Assembly: GCF_002007105.1 (NCBI RefSeq)
Contig: NZ_MVBC01000019.1
Coordinates: forward strand, 1-64,000
Direction: 5' to 3'
Origin: Hymenobacter sp. CRA2
GTDB lineage: Bacteria > Bacteroidota > Bacteroidia > Cytophagales > Hymenobacteraceae
DNA length: 64,000 nucleotides
In this document: piece after piece, positions 5,420 through 56,577 of the stretch
Layout of the letters: each line of letters begins with the position of its first letter
How positions within the stretch are numbered: position 1 is the first letter of the stretch
Notes under the pieces: generated by a model
Seen by the model: the letters and a program-made list of their open reading frames with translations, nothing else
What the model was told of the DNA's origin: nothing
The model's database searches: none
Translations under genes and position numbers: made by a program

Positions 5420-6946
5420 GTGGCTTGCACTTCATGTTCCAGCGGTGGCGGATGCGCTACTTCTGGCTGTGGCTCCAAAGGGGGCTGCTCCTCGGGCGGC
5501 TGCACGCGCCTGAATGTTTTCGACTGGCTGCAGGACATCGACCTGCCAGCCGGCTTCCAGGAATTTGACCTCGTAGAAATCCGCTTTAAGGGCGGACGCA
5601 AAGAATTTTACCGCAACGACAAGCGCCTCCCGCTCATCACCGGTGACCCGGTGGTGGTGGAGGCCGGCGGCAACGGCTGGCACCTCGGCTACGTGTCGCT
5701 GAAGGGCGAGCTGGTGCGCCTGCAGATGAAAAAGAAAAAGGTCGCGCAGGACTCCAAGGACATCCGCAACATCCTGCGCGTGGCGACGCCGCAGGACGTG
5801 GAGCGCTACGACGCCGCCCGCGAGCTGGAGCTGAACACCATGTTCCGCGCCCGCTCGGTGGTGGATGAGCTGCGCCTGCGCATGAAGCTCTCTGACGTAG
5901 AGTACCAGGCCGACCGCACCCGCGCCACCTTTTTCTACTCGGCCGAAGACCGCGTGGACTTCCGCGACCTGATCAAGCGCTTGGCTGAAGAATTCCGGGT
6001 ACGGGTGGAGATGCGCCAGATTTCGCTGCGCCACGAGGCCGGCCGCCTGGGCGGCATCGGCTCCTGCGGCCGCGAGCTGTGCTGCTCTACCTGGCTGACG
6101 GAATTTAAGAGCGTGAGCACCACCGCCGCGCGCTACCAGAACCTGAGCCTGAACCCGGCCAAGCTCTCGGGCCAGTGCGGCCGCCTGAAGTGCTGCCTGA
6201 ACTACGAGCTGGAAACCTACCTCGACGCGCTCAAGGACATTCCGCAGGTGTCGCGGCCACTGCAGACGCAGCTGGGCGACGCCTTCCTGCAGAAGACCGA
6301 TATCTTCAAGAAGCGGATGTGGTTTGCCCTGCGTGGCGACAACAACTGGGTGATGCTGCCCACCGAGCGGGTCAAGGAAATTCAGGCGCTGAACAAGGCC
6401 GGCGAAAAGCCCGAGACCTTGCTGGCACCGGTGGCCGAGCCCGAGCCCGCTCCCAGCGTGCAGGAACACGTGGAAGGCTCACTCGACCGCCTCGACGACA
6501 AGATCAAGGCCGGCAAACGCGCCAAGCGCAAAAAGAAGAAGGACAAGGACAAAGTGCCCGTGTCGCCGCCTTCGGGCGTGCAGCCCAAGCCCACCGCCTC
6601 CTTGCCGAAGGACGCCCCGCGCCCCCGGCAGGAGCCCAAGCCCAAGGCGCCCGTGGAAGCGGCACCCCCAGCGGATAGCGAAGGCCGGCCCGAAGGAAGC
6701 AAATCGGGCGGCCGCTCGGGCCGCCGTGGCCGCGGCAACGTAAGCACCGATGCGCCGCGTGCCGACCGCCCGGCACCGCGCTTCGACCCGCGCTTCCGAG
6801 CGGCACCGGGCGAAGGAGGAGCCGGACCGGCCAAGCCGGGTAGCGAGGAAGGCCGCAGTGGCCGCAGCCGACGCGGCGGCCGGCGGGGTGGCGGGGGAGA
6901 AGGCAACCCCAATGAGTCCGCTAATCCGTCGCCCTCTGCTTCGTAA
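5420..6946 (+). CDS. ricT: PSP1-domain protein, RicT/YaaT-like, with RGG-type tail
   Basis: The 508-residue product starts at a GTG; an in-frame TAG at 5408 rules out an earlier start. Residues 1-28 hold six cysteines, then a PSP1 core (about 40-310) with the family motifs GGIGSCGRELCCSTW and GQCGRLKCCLNYE, whose paired cysteines bind Fe-S in the Bacillus RicT. RicT acts with RicA and RicF in RNA processing there; its role in Bacteroidota is not settled. From about residue 350 the chain becomes disordered: a Lys block (RKKKKDKDK), a Pro/Lys stretch, then Gly-Arg repeats such as SGRRGRG and RRGGRRGGGGEG. Six bases separate it from gldH, so the two are probably co-transcribed. The core call is firm; the tail is the odd part. 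Confidence 0.88.
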   Translation: MACTSCSSGGGCATSGCGSKGGCSSGGCTRLNVFDWLQDIDLPAGFQEFDLVEIRFKGGRKEFYRNDKRLPLITGDPVVVEAGGNGWHLGYVSLKGELVRLQMKKKKVAQDSKDIRNILRVATPQDVERYDAARELELNTMFRARSVVDELRLRMKLSDVEYQADRTRATFFYSAEDRVDFRDLIKRLAEEFRVRVEMRQISLRHEAGRLGGIGSCGRELCCSTWLTEFKSVSTTAARYQNLSLNPAKLSGQCGRLKCCLNYELETYLDALKDIPQVSRPLQTQLGDAFLQKTDIFKKRMWFALRGDNNWVMLPTERVKEIQALNKAGEKPETLLAPVAEPEPAPSVQEHVEGSLDRLDDKIKAGKRAKRKKKKDKDKVPVSPPSGVQPKPTASLPKDAPRPRQEPKPKAPVEAAPPADSEGRPEGSKSGGRSGRRGRGNVSTDAPRADRPAPRFDPRFRAAPGEGGAGPAKPGSEEGRSGRSRRGGRRGGGGEGNPNESANPSPSAS

Positions 6947-6952
6947 CTTTTT

Positions 6953-7459
6953 ATGCTGCGTACCCTCCACCTGTTTCTGCTGCGTGCGGCCTGCTTCGGG
7001 CTGCTGATGGGGCTGACGGCCTGCGACCCTAACCGCGTCTTCGAAACCAACGAAGACCTGCCCGACTACGCATGGTCGGTGCAGAACAAGCCCGCGTTTG
7101 AGTTTGAGATAACCGATCCAAACCAGCCCTATAATGTGTACCTGAACGTGCGCAACGCGTCGGCTTACGGCTACTACAACCTGTACGTGAAGGCCACGCT
7201 TACCGGGCCGGCCGGGCCCGTGGGCAAGCCCATGCTGCACCAGATGATTCTAATGGACCCGAAGACTGGCGAGCCGCGCGGCGACGGCACCGGCGACATC
7301 TTCGACCACCAGTTTCTGGCCCTGCGCGACCAGCGTTTTCCGCAGGCTGGCAAGTATCGCATGGTGCTGGAGCAGTACATGCGCCAGGACGTGCTGCCGG
7401 GCATCATGGCCGTGGGCGTGCGGGTAGAAAAAGCCGCGCCGGGCGAAGCCGGTAAGTAA
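6953..7459 (+). CDS. gldH: Gliding motility lipoprotein GldH
   Basis: The product has 168 residues. A lipoprotein signal ends at Cys24 (GLTAC), followed by the family opening DPNRVFETNEDLPD. The region about residues 40-165 matches GldH, including the conserved YNVYLNVRN and the late PGIMAVGVRVEKA. In Flavobacterium johnsoniae GldH is a lipoprotein needed for gliding and linked to T9SS function; it is probably periplasm-facing or outer-membrane anchored. It directly follows the ricT-like gene, an arrangement I recall from many Bacteroidota. A hairpin terminator lies 27 bases downstream. The call is strong; whether this organism glides cannot be told from this gene. Confidence 0.9.
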   Translation: MLRTLHLFLLRAACFGLLMGLTACDPNRVFETNEDLPDYAWSVQNKPAFEFEITDPNQPYNVYLNVRNASAYGYYNLYVKATLTGPAGPVGKPMLHQMILMDPKTGEPRGDGTGDIFDHQFLALRDQRFPQAGKYRMVLEQYMRQDVLPGIMAVGVRVEKAAPGEAGK

Positions 7460-7486
7460 TCAGCATTGAGCTGTAAATCAGTAGCA

Positions 7487-7520
7487 AAGCCGCTTCCACT
7501 GGGAGCGGCTTCGTTGTTTT
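7487..7520 (+). terminator. Terminator after gldH
   Basis: AAGCCGCTTCC (7487-7497) pairs with GGGAGCGGCTT (7501-7511) with one G-T pair, followed by a T-rich tail. Confidence 0.75.
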
Positions 7521-7654
7521 TAAATAGGAAAGTAACGGCCGAATGGGGGCTTGGACGGGAAGGTGAATTGTTTGGATTTGGACAACTCCGCCGGAAACGC
7601 TGGCGTATAGTTTAACCGCATTCCAATTTCTCACCCAACCAAAATACCTTCACC

Positions 7655-9445
7655 ATGGCGGATAACACCAAAAATTCGAACGACACCAAAAATCAAACCT
7701 CTGGTTCGACGCAAGGTGCGCAGGGCAGCACCACACAAGGTGGCAGCACTACTGGTACCTTGGGTACTTCGGGCATGGGCTCCACTGCGGGCGGCATGCA
7801 AGGCAACGCCAACAACCAATCCGGTTCTTCTTCCTCGGGCCTGACCAGCGGTAACAGCGACAGCAACCGTTCGTCAGGCTCGACTACTTCCAGCCAGTCG
7901 TTGGCCAACTCGGAAATGAGCGCGGGCCAGGGTGGCCTGGATAGCTCGGCTTCGGGCAGCGGCAGCAAGTCGTCGGGCGGTGGCTCGTCGAGCAGCAAGA
8001 GCGGCGGCAGCAAGTCGGCTATGGGTTCGTCTTCGTCGTCGGCTTCGGCCAAGAAATCGGGCTCGACCACCAAGGCTTCGACTTCGGCTGGTAAGAGCGG
8101 TTCGTCTTCGAGCAAATCGAAAGGTCAGGACCAAAATAGCGGCCAGTCTTCGGGTTCGGACTCGGATCAGCAGAGCAGCCAAGGCAACTACGGCGGTAAC
8201 TTCGGTAACTCGATGCAAGGCAGCCACCAAGACCGTGACCGGGACGAAAACATGTACAGCGGCGCCGGTCGCGGCGAGTACGGCTCGCACGGCCGCGGCA
8301 ATACCCAAGGCGGCTACGGCAATCAGGACCGAGACTTCGACACCCGTTCGCGCGGCGGCGAGTACGGCCAGGATGGCTACAACCGCGGCACGCAAGGCAA
8401 CTCTTACGGCCAGTATAGCGGCCGCGACGAGTACCAGGGTGGTGGCGGCTACGGCAGCCAAGGGGGCTACAGCGGGAGCTACGGCCAGCAGAGCAACTAC
8501 GGCGGGGGCATGAGCAACCGCGGCGGTCAGGGCATGCAGGGCGGCCACAACTACGGTGAGCAGCGCTCAGGCCACATGGACAGCCAGTACGGCGGCCAGC
8601 GCGACTCGTACGGTTCCCAGGAGCGTGGCTACGGCCAGCAAGGCGGCAGCAACATGGGTGGTGGCATGCAAGGCAGCTATGGCAGCCAGGGCGGCGACTA
8701 CAGCGGCCGCAACTACGGTGGCCAAGGCATGCAGGGCGGCTACGGCCAGGGCAACAACCAGGACCGCAGCTCGAACGACAACGGCTCGCGCTACGGGCAG
8801 GGCCAGGGCTACAGCCAGGACTACGGCCGCTCGTCGATGGGTGGTGGCATGCAGGGCGGCTACGGCCAGCAGGGCAACCGCGGCGGCCAGGGCGGCCGTG
8901 AGCAGGATGACTACGGCCAGTACAGCACCCGCAACCAGCGCGAAGACCAAGACCGCTACTCTTCGCGCGGCGGCTACGACAATCAAGGCTCTTCGCGCGG
9001 CGGCGACTACTACGGTGGTGGCTACAGCGGCGGTCAGGGCAGCCAGGGCCGCAGCAACATGGGCGGCGGCCAGATGGGCAGTGGCTACGGCGGCGGTTAC
9101 AACGATGACCGCTACGACTCGGGCCGTTCGGGCTCGTCGTACGGTTCGCAGAACAGCAACTACGGCTCGCGCAGCGGCTACAACGAAGGCCGTGGCGGCT
9201 ACATGGGCAACTCCGACCAGGGTTTCGGCTCGCGCGGCGGCTCCTACAACGACGAGTACGACTCGTCGAACCGCAACTCGCGCCAGGGCTCGGCTTCGCG
9301 CGGCGACATGCGCAACGAGGACCGTAGCCAGAACTACGGCCAGCAGAACCGCGGCAACAACCGCAACCAGAACGAAGACTCGGACTACGGTTCCGGCTCG
9401 GCCATGCGCCGCAACCGCGGCCGCGACGAGGATGACCGTTACTAA
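7655..9445 (+). CDS. Long low-complexity (prion-like, FUS-like) protein, Gly/Ser/Tyr/Gln/Arg-rich
   Basis: The 596-residue product shows no known fold. Residues 1-175 are Ser/Gly/Thr/Lys-rich, with runs such as SSKSGGSKSAMGSSSSSAS. Residues 176-596 are made of Gly, Tyr, Gln, Ser, Asn, Arg and Asp in repeating units like GGMQGGYGQ, YGSQGGYSG and SRGGSYND. I find no Cys, Trp, Pro, Val or Ile, and only about four Leu and three Phe. SYGQ/GYGQ plus RGG motifs recall the low-complexity regions of eukaryotic FUS/EWS proteins that drive condensate formation. No signal peptide or membrane segment is seen, so it is likely cytoplasmic. It stands alone between two terminators. The last residues, RNRGRDEDDRY, resemble the end of the protein at 55543-56577. 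Function unknown; a stress or nucleic-acid-associated scaffold is only a guess. Gene reality is strongly supported by the absence of stops, its flanking terminators and the paralogue. Confidence 0.8.
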   Translation: MADNTKNSNDTKNQTSGSTQGAQGSTTQGGSTTGTLGTSGMGSTAGGMQGNANNQSGSSSSGLTSGNSDSNRSSGSTTSSQSLANSEMSAGQGGLDSSASGSGSKSSGGGSSSSKSGGSKSAMGSSSSSASAKKSGSTTKASTSAGKSGSSSSKSKGQDQNSGQSSGSDSDQQSSQGNYGGNFGNSMQGSHQDRDRDENMYSGAGRGEYGSHGRGNTQGGYGNQDRDFDTRSRGGEYGQDGYNRGTQGNSYGQYSGRDEYQGGGGYGSQGGYSGSYGQQSNYGGGMSNRGGQGMQGGHNYGEQRSGHMDSQYGGQRDSYGSQERGYGQQGGSNMGGGMQGSYGSQGGDYSGRNYGGQGMQGGYGQGNNQDRSSNDNGSRYGQGQGYSQDYGRSSMGGGMQGGYGQQGNRGGQGGREQDDYGQYSTRNQREDQDRYSSRGGYDNQGSSRGGDYYGGGYSGGQGSQGRSNMGGGQMGSGYGGGYNDDRYDSGRSGSSYGSQNSNYGSRSGYNEGRGGYMGNSDQGFGSRGGSYNDEYDSSNRNSRQGSASRGDMRNEDRSQNYGQQNRGNNRNQNEDSDYGSGSAMRRNRGRDEDDRY

Positions 9446-9465
9446 GCCCTTCTGAGCTAATTAGT

Positions 9466-9502
9466 AAAAAGGCCCCTCGGCAGCTGCCGAGGGGCCTTTT
9501 TT
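9466..9502 (+). terminator. Terminator after the low-complexity gene
   Basis: A 17-bp perfect palindrome, AAAAGGCCCCTCGGCAG and its complement, centred near 9484 and ending in six T residues. It lies 20 bases after the stop codon. Confidence 0.85.
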
Positions 9503-9620
9503 GTTGTCGGGTCAGGCGAGGCGCTGACAAGCGCAGTTTACTGAGTTCAGGTGTAGCTTTTGGTCCTCAACGCAACGAACAGGGTGCATCCCGGGGCCTC
9601 ACCCGAGCCGACAACGCCGA

Positions 9621-10499
9621 CTAAGCCGGCAAAAACGCGGCCCGGTTTTCCTGAGCAAATTCCTGCACCGTGCGGGGCCGCCGGCCCGTGAGCCGTTCCA
9701 CATCGGGCGTGATGCCAGCGGCGTGGCCCGCCCGGCCAAGGGCGTGGAGCTCCATCATGCTATCAATCATCCACTGCGGGGCGCCCTGCATGGCCTGGCG
9801 GGCGGTTTCTTCGGGCACGTCCACGTACTGCACGGGGCGGCCGGCCGCCTGGCCGATAGCGGCCGCTACTTCCTGGGTGCTCAGGGCCTGCGGGCCGGTG
9901 AGGGCATAGGCCCGGCCGTGGTGCTTCGGAATATCATCGGTGAGAATAGCCGCAGCGACTTCGGCAATGTCAAACACGTCGATGTAACTTATGCGGCCTT
10001 CCCCCAGCGGCTGGTAGATGGCGCCCTGCTGGCGGATGGACTCGCCCTGGTAGTTAATGAAGTTCTGCAGAAAGCTATTTGGGCGCAGAATGGCGTACGG
10101 CAGGCCACTTTGCGCCAGGTAGCGTTCCACCTCGCGGTGCCAGCGACCCAACTGAATGCCCGGCTCGGCTTCGGCGCCCATTACCGAAAGCCGAACCACT
10201 TGCTTGACCCGGGCCGCTTTGGCTGCATCGATGAGCTGCTGCCCCATCTGTACCTGCGTGTCGGTAAACGGGGTAACGAGAAACACGCGGTCGACGCCGG
10301 TGAAGGCCACGGTGAGCGTTTCGGGACGCTCGAAGTCCAGCTCCACCAGCTGAACGTCGGGGTTAAGGTGGCGCAGCCGGTCGCCCTTGATGACGGAGTG
10401 CACACCGGCGCGCACGTGCACGTCGCGGTTGCTCAGGGCGCGCACCAGCTCGCTGCCGACGTTGCCGGTAGCGCCGGTGACCAGGATAGTTTCGGGCAT
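9621..10499 (-). CDS. NmrA-like SDR family NAD(P)-binding oxidoreductase
   Basis: The 292-residue product opens with ILVTGATGNVGSELVRAL, the GxxGxxG dinucleotide-binding motif of extended or atypical SDR proteins. The middle segment (RLSVMGAEAEPG...GRWHREVERYLAQSG) and LPYAILRPNSFLQNF are typical of NmrA/HSCARG and quinone oxidoreductase-2-like members, which bind NAD(P) and often act as redox sensors or reductases. No YxxxK catalytic pair is obvious. It is cytoplasmic. The next minus-strand gene upstream begins about 76 bases away, so linkage is uncertain. Subfamily and substrate are open. Confidence 0.85.
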   Translation of the reverse strand: MPETILVTGATGNVGSELVRALSNRDVHVRAGVHSVIKGDRLRHLNPDVQLVELDFERPETLTVAFTGVDRVFLVTPFTDTQVQMGQQLIDAAKAARVKQVVRLSVMGAEAEPGIQLGRWHREVERYLAQSGLPYAILRPNSFLQNFINYQGESIRQQGAIYQPLGEGRISYIDVFDIAEVAAAILTDDIPKHHGRAYALTGPQALSTQEVAAAIGQAAGRPVQYVDVPEETARQAMQGAPQWMIDSMMELHALGRAGHAAGITPDVERLTGRRPRTVQEFAQENRAAFLPA

Positions 10500-55542: not shown

Positions 55543-56577
55543 TTAGTAACGCCCGCGCCGGTCGCGGCCGCGGTCGTTTTGGTCATCCATGTCGTTGTAG
55601 CCGCGGCCGTAGCCCTGGCTGCCGCGGCCCGAGCCGCGGTTCATGTCGTCCTGGTCGTAGTCCGTCGACGGGCCGTACATCGATGAGTCGTAGGAGCCGT
55701 AAGATGAGCCGTAGGATGAGTTGTCGCGGCCGCTCATGCCGCTGCTCATCCCGCTCATGCTGCGGCCACCCATGCCCATATCGTCCGAAGACGATGAGGA
55801 CGAGCGGCCCGACATGCCGCCGCGGTAGTTGTCGGTGTTGTCGTAGCTGCTGCGGCCGTACGAAGACGACGAGCCGTAATCCGACATGCCGCGGCCGTAC
55901 GAGTTGCCGCGGTCGGAGTAGTCGTTCATGCCGCTGCTCATCCCGCCGCGGCGCGACGACGAGTAGTTCATGCTGCCGTAGCCGTCGTAGTCCATGTCAT
56001 CCGACGAGTTGCTGCCCATCGACGACATGCCGCGGTCCATACCGCCACTCATGCCGCCCATATTGCCCATGCCGCGCTGCCCGTACGAAGACGACGTGCC
56101 CATGCCGCCGCTCATGCCGCGGCCGCCGTAGCCGTAGTCGTCGCGGTCGGAGCCGCCGCGGTTCGACATGCCGGAGGAGTAGCCGCGGTCATTGTCCATG
56201 TTGCCGCTCATGCCGTAGTCGGAGCGGCCCGTGCCCTGGCTCATGCCGCGGCCCGAGCCACGGTAATTCATGTCGCGGTCCATACCGCCGCCCATGCCCG
56301 AGTTCATGTCGGAATTCATCCCCGACATGCCCATGCCGGACATACCCATGCCCGAGCCCATTCCGCGGCCGGAGCCGCCGCGGTCCTGGCCGTACGACGA
56401 AGACATGTTCGACGAGCCGTAGTAGTCGCGGTCCATGTCGTCATCGTAGCGCGACGACATGCCACGGCTGGAGCTGCTTTGGCTGTACTGGTCGCGGTCC
56501 TGCTGGCGGCCTTGGTTCTGGCGGTTACTGCGGTTGTCGTACCGGTCGTCGTCGCGGTGCTGATTGTAATTTGCCAT
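55543..56577 (-). CDS. Second low-complexity protein, Gly/Ser/Met/Asp/Arg/Tyr-rich
   Basis: The 344-residue product begins MANYNQHRDDDRYDNRSNRQ and is composed of Gly, Ser, Met, Asp, Arg, Tyr, Asn and Gln. I find no Leu, Val, Ile, Phe, Cys, Trp, Lys or Glu, one Pro and one Ala. Units such as GMSGMGMSGMNSDMNSGMGGGM, shown in part by GMSGMNSDM and SSSYGQRGMG, repeat in the middle. The ends are charged Arg/Asp zippers, and the chain closes with NDRGRDRRGRY, like the RNRGRDEDDRY of the protein at 7655-9445. It has no signal or membrane segment. Both genes are single transcripts with their own terminators. Function unknown; a condensate-forming or RNA-associated role is inferred only from composition. 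Confidence 0.8.
   Translation of the reverse strand: MANYNQHRDDDRYDNRSNRQNQGRQQDRDQYSQSSSSRGMSSRYDDDMDRDYYGSSNMSSSYGQDRGGSGRGMGSGMGMSGMGMSGMNSDMNSGMGGGMDRDMNYRGSGRGMSQGTGRSDYGMSGNMDNDRGYSSGMSNRGGSDRDDYGYGGRGMSGGMGTSSSYGQRGMGNMGGMSGGMDRGMSSMGSNSSDDMDYDGYGSMNYSSSRRGGMSSGMNDYSDRGNSYGRGMSDYGSSSSYGRSSYDNTDNYRGGMSGRSSSSSSDDMGMGGRSMSGMSSGMSGRDNSSYGSSYGSYDSSMYGPSTDYDQDDMNRGSGRGSQGYGRGYNDMDDQNDRGRDRRGRY

Follow-up and report, generated by a model that had tools for sequence, protein, structure and literature searches.

A conserved Hymenobacter gene for a predicted disordered protein of FUS-like composition, with a putative stress-type promoter and a seemingly constrained net charge

The window, as we call the whole 64,000-nt stretch of Hymenobacter sp. 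CRA2 DNA analyzed here, contains a forward-strand open reading frame (7655–9445) that runs from ATG to stop and encodes a 596-residue protein of FUS-like composition. Gly (153) and Ser (115) dominate, followed by Gln (61), Asn (48), Tyr (44), Arg (43), Asp (40), Thr (21) and Met (20); Ala (15), Glu (14), Lys (11), Leu (4), His (4) and Phe (3) are rarer, and Cys, Trp, Pro, Val and Ile are absent. These counts bear out the composition described in the initial annotation. The SYGQ/GYGQ and RGG motifs that it also named are present but sparse (two SYGQ, three GYGQ and seven RGG, beside 25 YG). To our knowledge, bacterial proteins made wholly of FUS-like low-complexity sequence have rarely been described.

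The protein has two parts. The N-terminal part (residues 1–179; 7655–8191, forward strand) is rich in Ser, Gly, Thr and Lys and holds all 11 Lys, one Arg and one aromatic residue, for a net charge of +4. The C-terminal Tyr/Arg/Gly part (residues 180–596; 8192–9442, forward strand) holds 43 Tyr, 42 Arg, no Lys and 46 Asp/Glu, for a net charge of −4. A disorder prediction had been proposed at the outset; AlphaFold, run with the 20-member alignment A1, gave a mean pLDDT of 40.9, with no residue at 70 or above and 570 of 596 residues below 50. Because pLDDT is low throughout, we treat the protein as disordered. At the DNA level, TRF listed no tandem array within 7655–9445, and a single 24-mer is repeated in the gene, occurring twice. 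We rejected repeat expansion of the DNA as the origin of the sequence, as the gene lacks a tandem array.

The frame bears the marks of selection on a protein. Orthologues free of stops in their matched stretches occur in all eight genomes of the organism's own genus, g1 (in genome G001 the match is two pieces of a single 585-aa frame), so the frame loss in close relatives that the initial annotation had named as its refutation did not appear in that genus. Among nine sequences (the eight g1 genomes plus L073 from H. gummosus, which clusters with the g1 sequences on the gldH tree), dN/dS ranges from 0.10 to 0.64 over 36 pairs, and differences at codon positions 1, 2 and 3 (0.19, 0.16 and 0.29) are greatest at the third. 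The neighboring gene gldH has a median dN/dS of 0.21 (21 pairs, seven sequences), and by that comparison the 596-residue protein evolves somewhat faster under the same kind of constraint. Because the orthologues show no stops in their matched stretches, dN/dS is low and third positions change most, 7655–9445 is more than a chance frame, and sequence comparison confirms it as a real, conserved gene, as initially claimed.

Flanking signals suggest that the gene is transcribed on its own. Downstream lies an intrinsic terminator (9466–9501, forward strand) with a 16-pair stem and a T-rich 3′ side; it folds at −31.8 kcal/mol (z −7.2), a value equaled in none of 200 shuffles, which upholds the earlier claim of a terminator belonging to the gene. 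Upstream, a terminator-like hairpin after gldH (7487–7511, forward strand) has an 11-pair stem and then a T-rich tail. The hairpin scan taken alone is weak, since it found three sites in the region against 2.7 in shuffles; the position of this hairpin after gldH nevertheless suggests that the gene forms its own transcription unit. Between hairpin and gene lies a promoter-like element, AACTCCGCCGGAAACGCTGGCGTATAG (7584–7610, forward strand), with a −35-like AAC at 7584–7586 and a −10-like CGTATAG at 7604–7610, separated from the ATG by 44 nt. A sigma-70 consensus scan of 7400–9650 gave no promoter, and no Rfam family was found in 6900–9700.

The gene belongs to a family spread through two genera. 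A profile built from alignment A1 matched 127 of 204 genomes of the taxonomic family, comprising 8/8 in g1 and 119/120 in g4 (Hymenobacter), and matched none in the other four genera. The homology search in Hymenobacteraceae that the initial annotation had proposed thus turns up relatives in all but one of these Hymenobacter genomes. Stops interrupt the matched stretch in five genomes of g4 (G037, G113, G042, G092 and G049). Among 395 genomes drawn from the class, four matched: the organism's own and three of g4. A search for plasmid-borne relatives in a plasmid collection gave no match, a PDB sequence search with the 596-residue protein returned no relative, and its Pfam and NCBIfam searches returned no families (Pfam at E ≤ 1); the 20 aligned members together gave no more than stray hits, to one Pfam family and two NCBIfam families, with best E values of 0.17–0.89. 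Nothing on the family was found in the literature searched on Hymenobacter disorder and transcriptomes, FUS-like bacterial proteins, hydrophilins and Bacteroidetes stress sigma factors, including the portions of PMC10534466 that were available.

Aligned, the family's sequence is a series of ordered conserved blocks and not a featureless low-complexity tract. The 20-member alignment has 44 invariant columns, and its consensus blocks 1 to 6 read SS.SLA.SE.S.GQG; YGGNFGNS...RGEFG..G.GNTQGGYGNQYR; NDNGS...GYS.DYG.SS; RNQ.ED.RSSRGGYDNQG; GYGSRGGSYNDEY; and QNYG..R...DYGSAPRRNRGRD. Along the 596-residue protein, conserved blocks lie on the forward strand at residues 79–93 (SSQSLANSEMSAGQG; 7889–7933), where S79, S80 and G93 are invariant in that alignment, at residues 178–226 (NYGGNFGNS...RGEYGSHGRGNTQGGYGNQDR; 8186–8332), 374–394 (NDNGSRYGQGQGYSQDYGRSS; 8774–8836), 426–445 (RNQREDQDRYSSRGGYDNQG; 8930–8989) and 518–538 (GNSDQGFGSRGGSYNDEYDSS; 9206–9268), and at the C terminus, residues 560–596 (NYGQQNRG...RRNRGRDEDDRY; 9332–9442).

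Two readings of the locus can be judged at this point. Overlapping long frames, such as one of 503 aa at 8019–9530 on the reverse strand, would allow 7655–9445 to be a spurious frame in GC-rich DNA, with the real gene overlapping or antisense to it. We give this practically no credence and reject it: purifying selection acts on the 7655–9445 frame, all eight genus genomes carry orthologues, the ordered blocks are kept in members 30–84% identical to the 596-residue protein, and the promoter element and terminator flank the frame on either side. A role as a gliding, adhesion or envelope accessory protein would draw on the neighborhood, as gldH precedes the gene in the same orientation at 62 of 76 loci (our own locus plus 75 from the best 80 of 96 confirmed, ranked by likeness to the 596-residue protein). 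Yet gldH was not found in the examined flank in the other 14 of these best-ranked loci, the hairpin and the separate promoter element stand between gldH and the gene, and inspection by eye shows nothing signal-like in the hydrophilic N-terminus, MADNTKN. We regard an envelope role as very improbable.

The upstream element looks like a putative ECF-type promoter that recurs throughout the family. It first became visible in an alignment of the members' upstream regions. In a search region reaching from 250 nt upstream of the open frame to 400 nt beyond the start that we chose, we found AAC-N15..17-CGTAT(A/G) for 71 of the 76 members (loci from the best 80 of 96 confirmed), compared with a mean of 0.87 and a maximum of 4 of 76 over 200 rounds of mononucleotide shuffling, and 0 of 76 on the reverse strand. 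A stricter rule, [CG]CGTAT[AG] alone, matched 70 of the same 76 best-ranked loci; it misses four of the 71 members (L104, L116, L130 and L142), and its match in L127 looks like chance inside the frame. In 68 members an in-frame ATG lies 19–66 nt from the start of the stricter motif.

Other genes lie behind the same element. For a genome-wide search we used AAC-N15/16-GCGTATA(A/G) and counted sites lying 12–110 nt before an opening ORF of at least 80 aa. The eight g1 genomes hold 29 sites, 22 of them before an ORF start; leaving out the FUS-like gene itself (8 sites, one per genome), the count is 14 of 21. The reversed pattern, run in g1 only, precedes an ORF start at 3 of 30 sites (30 of 37 examined; Fisher p 4e-5, FUS-like gene left out). 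Taking this g1 control for the other genera too, we found 18 of 30 sites before ORF starts in g4 (11 genomes; 30 of 40 sites examined) and 14 of 30 in the four other genera (10 genomes; 30 of 42 examined). Genera in which the FUS-like gene was not found still carry the pattern before stress-type genes. Pattern totals are not above those of the reversed pattern (29 vs 37 in g1; 5 vs 14 for a looser form in the organism's own genome). A regulon claimed from pattern counts therefore fails, and the case rests on position and on recurrence before orthologous genes.

Nine of the products behind the pattern were scanned against Pfam (ten picked minus L233): DUF4142 occurred in two and YtxH with CsbD in one, and six had no match above the cut-off. 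Ten further products gave DUF4142 in three, DUF892 in two, SDR in two and SPW in one, with no match in the remaining two. Several more resemble the scanned ones by eye, and small hydrophilic proteins (L159, L209, L235 and L250) also stand behind the pattern. Two of the 14 other g1 sites, L164 and L172, precede products unlike stress genes; the L164 product looks transposase-like by eye, and L172 is a doubtful frame of 90 aa. No sigma gene was recognized by eye among the products listed.

Together, the element's presence in 71 of 76 members of the best-ranked set and its recurrence before DUF4142, YtxH/CsbD, DUF892 and SDR genes indicate that the FUS-like gene is probably a general-stress gene. 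The stress conditions guessed in the initial annotation (desiccation, cold or radiation) fit this promoter evidence. The arrangement resembles the EcfG regulon of Alphaproteobacteria: the EcfG stress promoter in Sphingopyxis is GGAAC-N16-CGTT, no more than 3 of 79 promoters depart from its AAC, and csbD is among the targets, as given in the available part of PMC7083833. Both elements thus have AAC in the −35, CGT in the −10 and about 16 nt between. They differ in that the −10 here is CGTAT(A/G) where EcfG has CGTT; the phyla differ as well, and the sigma factor here is putative.

The family exists in two compositional states, only one of which is FUS-like. Among 71 members counted from the best 80 of 96 confirmed, 16 are near-neutral and FUS-like (net −4 to +4, 504–612 aa, 33–48 Tyr) and 55 are acidic and Tyr-poor (net −18 to −38, 292–510 aa, 10–25 Tyr), with none of these 71 between −18 and −4. 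Five members (L091, L092, L093, L112 and L135) were left out as shorter than 280 aa after the start-choice heuristic, and the 16:55 ratio is not a census, as the loci are the best 80 of 96 ranked by likeness to the 596-residue protein. The two states share the conserved blocks and the promoter element and, mostly, the genomic position. Mapped onto a gldH tree built from 62 loci, the state requires five changes, at least three of them forced by well-supported branches, so it has been gained or lost repeatedly. With 55 of 71 members acidic and five changes on the tree, the FUS-like state is not essential to the family's function. The initial description of a FUS-like protein therefore stands for its composition and for the gene's reality, but that composition is one of two that the family takes.

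Within these states, net charge seems to be held near constant by compensatory change. The C-terminal part of the 16 neutral members nets −4 to −6 (mean −5.4, s.d. 0.86), with 36–51 positive and 41–58 negative residues. Permuting charges within alignment columns raised the standard deviation from 0.86 to 6.51, and none of 2,000 permutations was as low (n = 16); seven representatives gave 0.90 vs 6.25, again with 0 of 2,000. Because indels could carry neutral units, we added permutation in blocks of 5 to 80 columns, and at each size 0 of 2,000 were as low in the neutral set. Ungapped columns alone gave 2.29 vs 4.87 (fraction 0.0005). The acidic set, sampled as 25 of 60 members, gave 2.28 vs 6.19, and its value was still low under block permutation (fraction 0.02 with 80-column blocks). 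Two neighbors used as controls had no charge effect (psp1 0.73, o10576 0.69), and gldH had a mild one (fraction 0.0105). These permutation statistics ignore phylogeny; we think that kinship would generally increase the variance of the sums and so make the test conservative. Medians for the acidic C-terminal part come from 30 of 55 members, and in L077, L080, L081 and L082, which lack the GGNFG landmark, that part was split by a second rule whose border shifts some residues.

Residue choice and spacing are also patterned. In the 16 neutral members the C-terminal part has 0–2 Lys against 36–51 Arg. Aromatic residues are more regularly spaced than in shuffled sequences (coefficient of variation 0.43–0.64 vs 0.90–0.92, fraction ≤ 0.002, 12 members tested). 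Their number shows only a mild constraint in the neutral set (fraction 0.014, or 0.058 when seven representatives are used) and none in the acidic set (fraction 0.952). Together with the stress-like promoter, the seemingly near-constant charge suggests a role in surviving drying or other stress.

A second FUS-like protein in the window shows a comparable charge balance. This 344-aa product (55543–56577, reverse strand), rich in Gly, Ser, Asp, Met, Arg and Tyr, had been called a paralogue. That claim we reject: the best BLASTP match between the two proteins has E = 2.0, a search of the organism's own genome with the 596-residue protein at E ≤ 1 did not find it, and the likeness is compositional only. 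Of 150 genomes drawn from the taxonomic family six encode it, all in g1 (6/8). The six members have net charges of −3 to −6, with a standard deviation of 0.96 vs 4.95 after permutation (fraction 0.0015).

We lean toward the view that the gene encodes a stress-induced, cytoplasmic, disordered hydrophilin with its own ECF-type promoter, whose FUS-like form may self-associate. An ECF-type sigma factor would transcribe the gene on its own from AAC-N15..17-CGTAT, and stress, most likely osmotic, drying or stationary phase, would cause the protein to be made in quantity. It would then work in the cytoplasm by bulk physical chemistry and not through a fold. The 43 regularly spaced Tyr and 42 Arg of the C-terminal part, from which Lys is excluded, could serve as weak stickers; the chain that carries them, soluble and built of Gly, Ser, Gln and Asn, would be kept at a net charge near −5. 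As the cytoplasm concentrates, the FUS-like form may associate reversibly with itself or with clients, dissolving again on recovery from stress. The self-association step draws on sticker logic and on the behavior of FUS, and the protective role that we assign to a disordered general-stress protein is read from its composition and from the company its promoter keeps. The existence of the acidic state bears on this account. With 55 of 71 members acidic and Tyr-poor, forming condensates cannot simply be what the family as a whole is conserved to do, and the acidic state argues that condensation, if any, would be one lineage's variation on a broader protective function.

Two other accounts compete with self-association. 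The protein may be a plain hydrophilin or LEA-like filler, a soluble, non-condensing disordered protectant whose Tyr and Arg reflect drift in a permissive composition; the commoner state in the best-ranked set is indeed the acidic, Tyr-poor one, it retains the promoter element and the conserved blocks, and the same pattern precedes genes for other small hydrophilic proteins. Drift does not sit easily with the regular aromatic spacing of the FUS-like members tested, with a C-terminal part nearly free of Lys, or with charge compensated to within about one unit, and we consider a mere filler unlikely, though deserving of real weight. Alternatively, the protein could act as a functional analogue of FUS, an RNA- or DNA-binding condensate organizer that, under stress, shields nucleic acids or retains mRNAs. 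The Tyr-rich domain with Arg as its basic residue and the seven RGG motifs would suit such a role, as would an N-terminal Lys/Ser-rich part that might bind nucleic acid. Against it, no RRM, zinc finger or other domain appears in the Pfam, NCBIfam and PDB searches, the part rich in Arg still carries a slight net negative charge, and nucleic acid should be repelled by the acidic orthologues. An organizer of this kind strikes us as improbable.

The self-associating hydrophilin that we favor has clear points of contact with known systems. Hydrophilins are defined by Gly above 6% and a hydrophilicity index above 1 (per the available text of PMC7448490); the 596-residue protein has 25.7% Gly and a GRAVY of −1.60, that is, an index of 1.60 when the index is read as GRAVY with its sign reversed. 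The gene would be induced by water deficit, judging by its promoter element and by the other genes that lie behind that element. Predicted disorder, strong hydrophilicity, Gly richness and a stress-type promoter context are thus common to this protein and to hydrophilins and LEA-like proteins. It differs from them in its size (504–612 aa in the FUS-like state), its richness in Tyr and Arg, its lack of a Pfam or NCBIfam family and a net charge at a set value.

FET proteins (FUS, EWS and TAF15) carry an RRM and a zinc finger beside a Tyr/Gly/Ser/Gln-rich low-complexity region. The 596-residue protein has the latter composition; it shares with FUS and EWS the use of Gly, Ser, Tyr, Gln, Asn and Arg, richness in YG and regularly spaced aromatics. 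Unlike them it has no folded RNA-binding domain detectable by Pfam at E ≤ 1, many Asp/Glu and few SYGQ, and its family has conserved ordered blocks and, among the genomes searched, occurs in only two bacterial genera. As the sequence searches returned neither a domain nor a relative in the PDB, and no homology was found, the likeness to FUS is one of composition only. KGG/con-10 proteins (PF10685) are hydrophilic stress proteins, and one is encoded elsewhere in the organism's own genome. Kinship with them looked plausible by eye (GGNF..N) and was dropped, PF10685 having no match in the 20 members at E ≤ 1; the family shares their hydrophilic stress character and differs in lacking that domain. 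We read the protein as a probable stress protein of the hydrophilin type that combines a FUS-like composition with an apparent charge set-point.

The promoter element suggests that this family of bacteria has a general stress regulon, of which we found no description in the literature searched on Bacteroidetes stress sigma factors. As a sign that selection acts on a bulk property of a disordered protein, the apparent charge compensation is unusually clean. Members of the large Hymenobacter genus group are known to live in dry, cold and irradiated places, and the FUS-like family is present in nearly every searched genome of the group. Its orthologues vary in Tyr, Arg and net charge, mostly at the same position and behind the same promoter element, so this natural series makes it directly testable whether condensation or hydration is the selected trait. 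A bolder reading, which we offer tentatively and hold to be doubtful, is that two unrelated FUS-like families of one bacterial lineage are selected for a bulk physical quantity, a net charge of about −5, through compensation between distant Arg and Asp/Glu, and that one of the two serves as a scaffold for condensates in general stress and has alternated in evolution between a neutral form with Tyr/Arg stickers and an acidic form. If that were true, the family would be a bacterial counterpart of the eukaryotic prion-like stress-granule proteins, with a measurable charge set-point.

Two very long open frames overlap the gene for the 596-residue FUS-like protein, one on the reverse strand (8019-9530) and one on the forward strand (8556-9455). 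Neither shows any sign of being a gene, and both probably arise from the sense gene's own composition. In five genomes of the Hymenobacter genus group (G037, G113, G042, G092 and G049), matches to the protein's family run across a single stop codon, possibly reflecting decay, alignment overrun or assembly error.

The window also encodes a second protein of 344 residues (55543-56577, reverse strand), which is rich in Tyr, Gly, Ser, Met, Arg and Asp and unrelated to the FUS-like protein. It was found in six of the eight genomes of the source genus, with a net charge of -3 to -6 among these six members, and the sequence upstream of its gene differs from that before the 596-residue protein gene.

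Elsewhere in the source genome, locus L145 encodes a KGG (con-10-like) stress protein (1366-1665); the ~216 bases read upstream contain no exact match to the stress-type promoter element AAC-N15..17-CGTAT(A/G). This element is common to a lipoprotein-like family in four genus genomes (L150, L168, L169 and L170), whose members begin MKKxLMLL... and carry an SDADYN-type motif further on. A Pfam scan of L150, the sole member scanned, returned no match. The form AAC-N15/16-GCGTATAR repeatedly precedes genes for DUF4142, YtxH/CsbD, DUF892, SPW, SDR and small hydrophilic proteins, at loci (L147-L177 and L208-L267) drawn from several genera of the taxonomic family. Its recurrence across these genera points to a putative general stress regulon.
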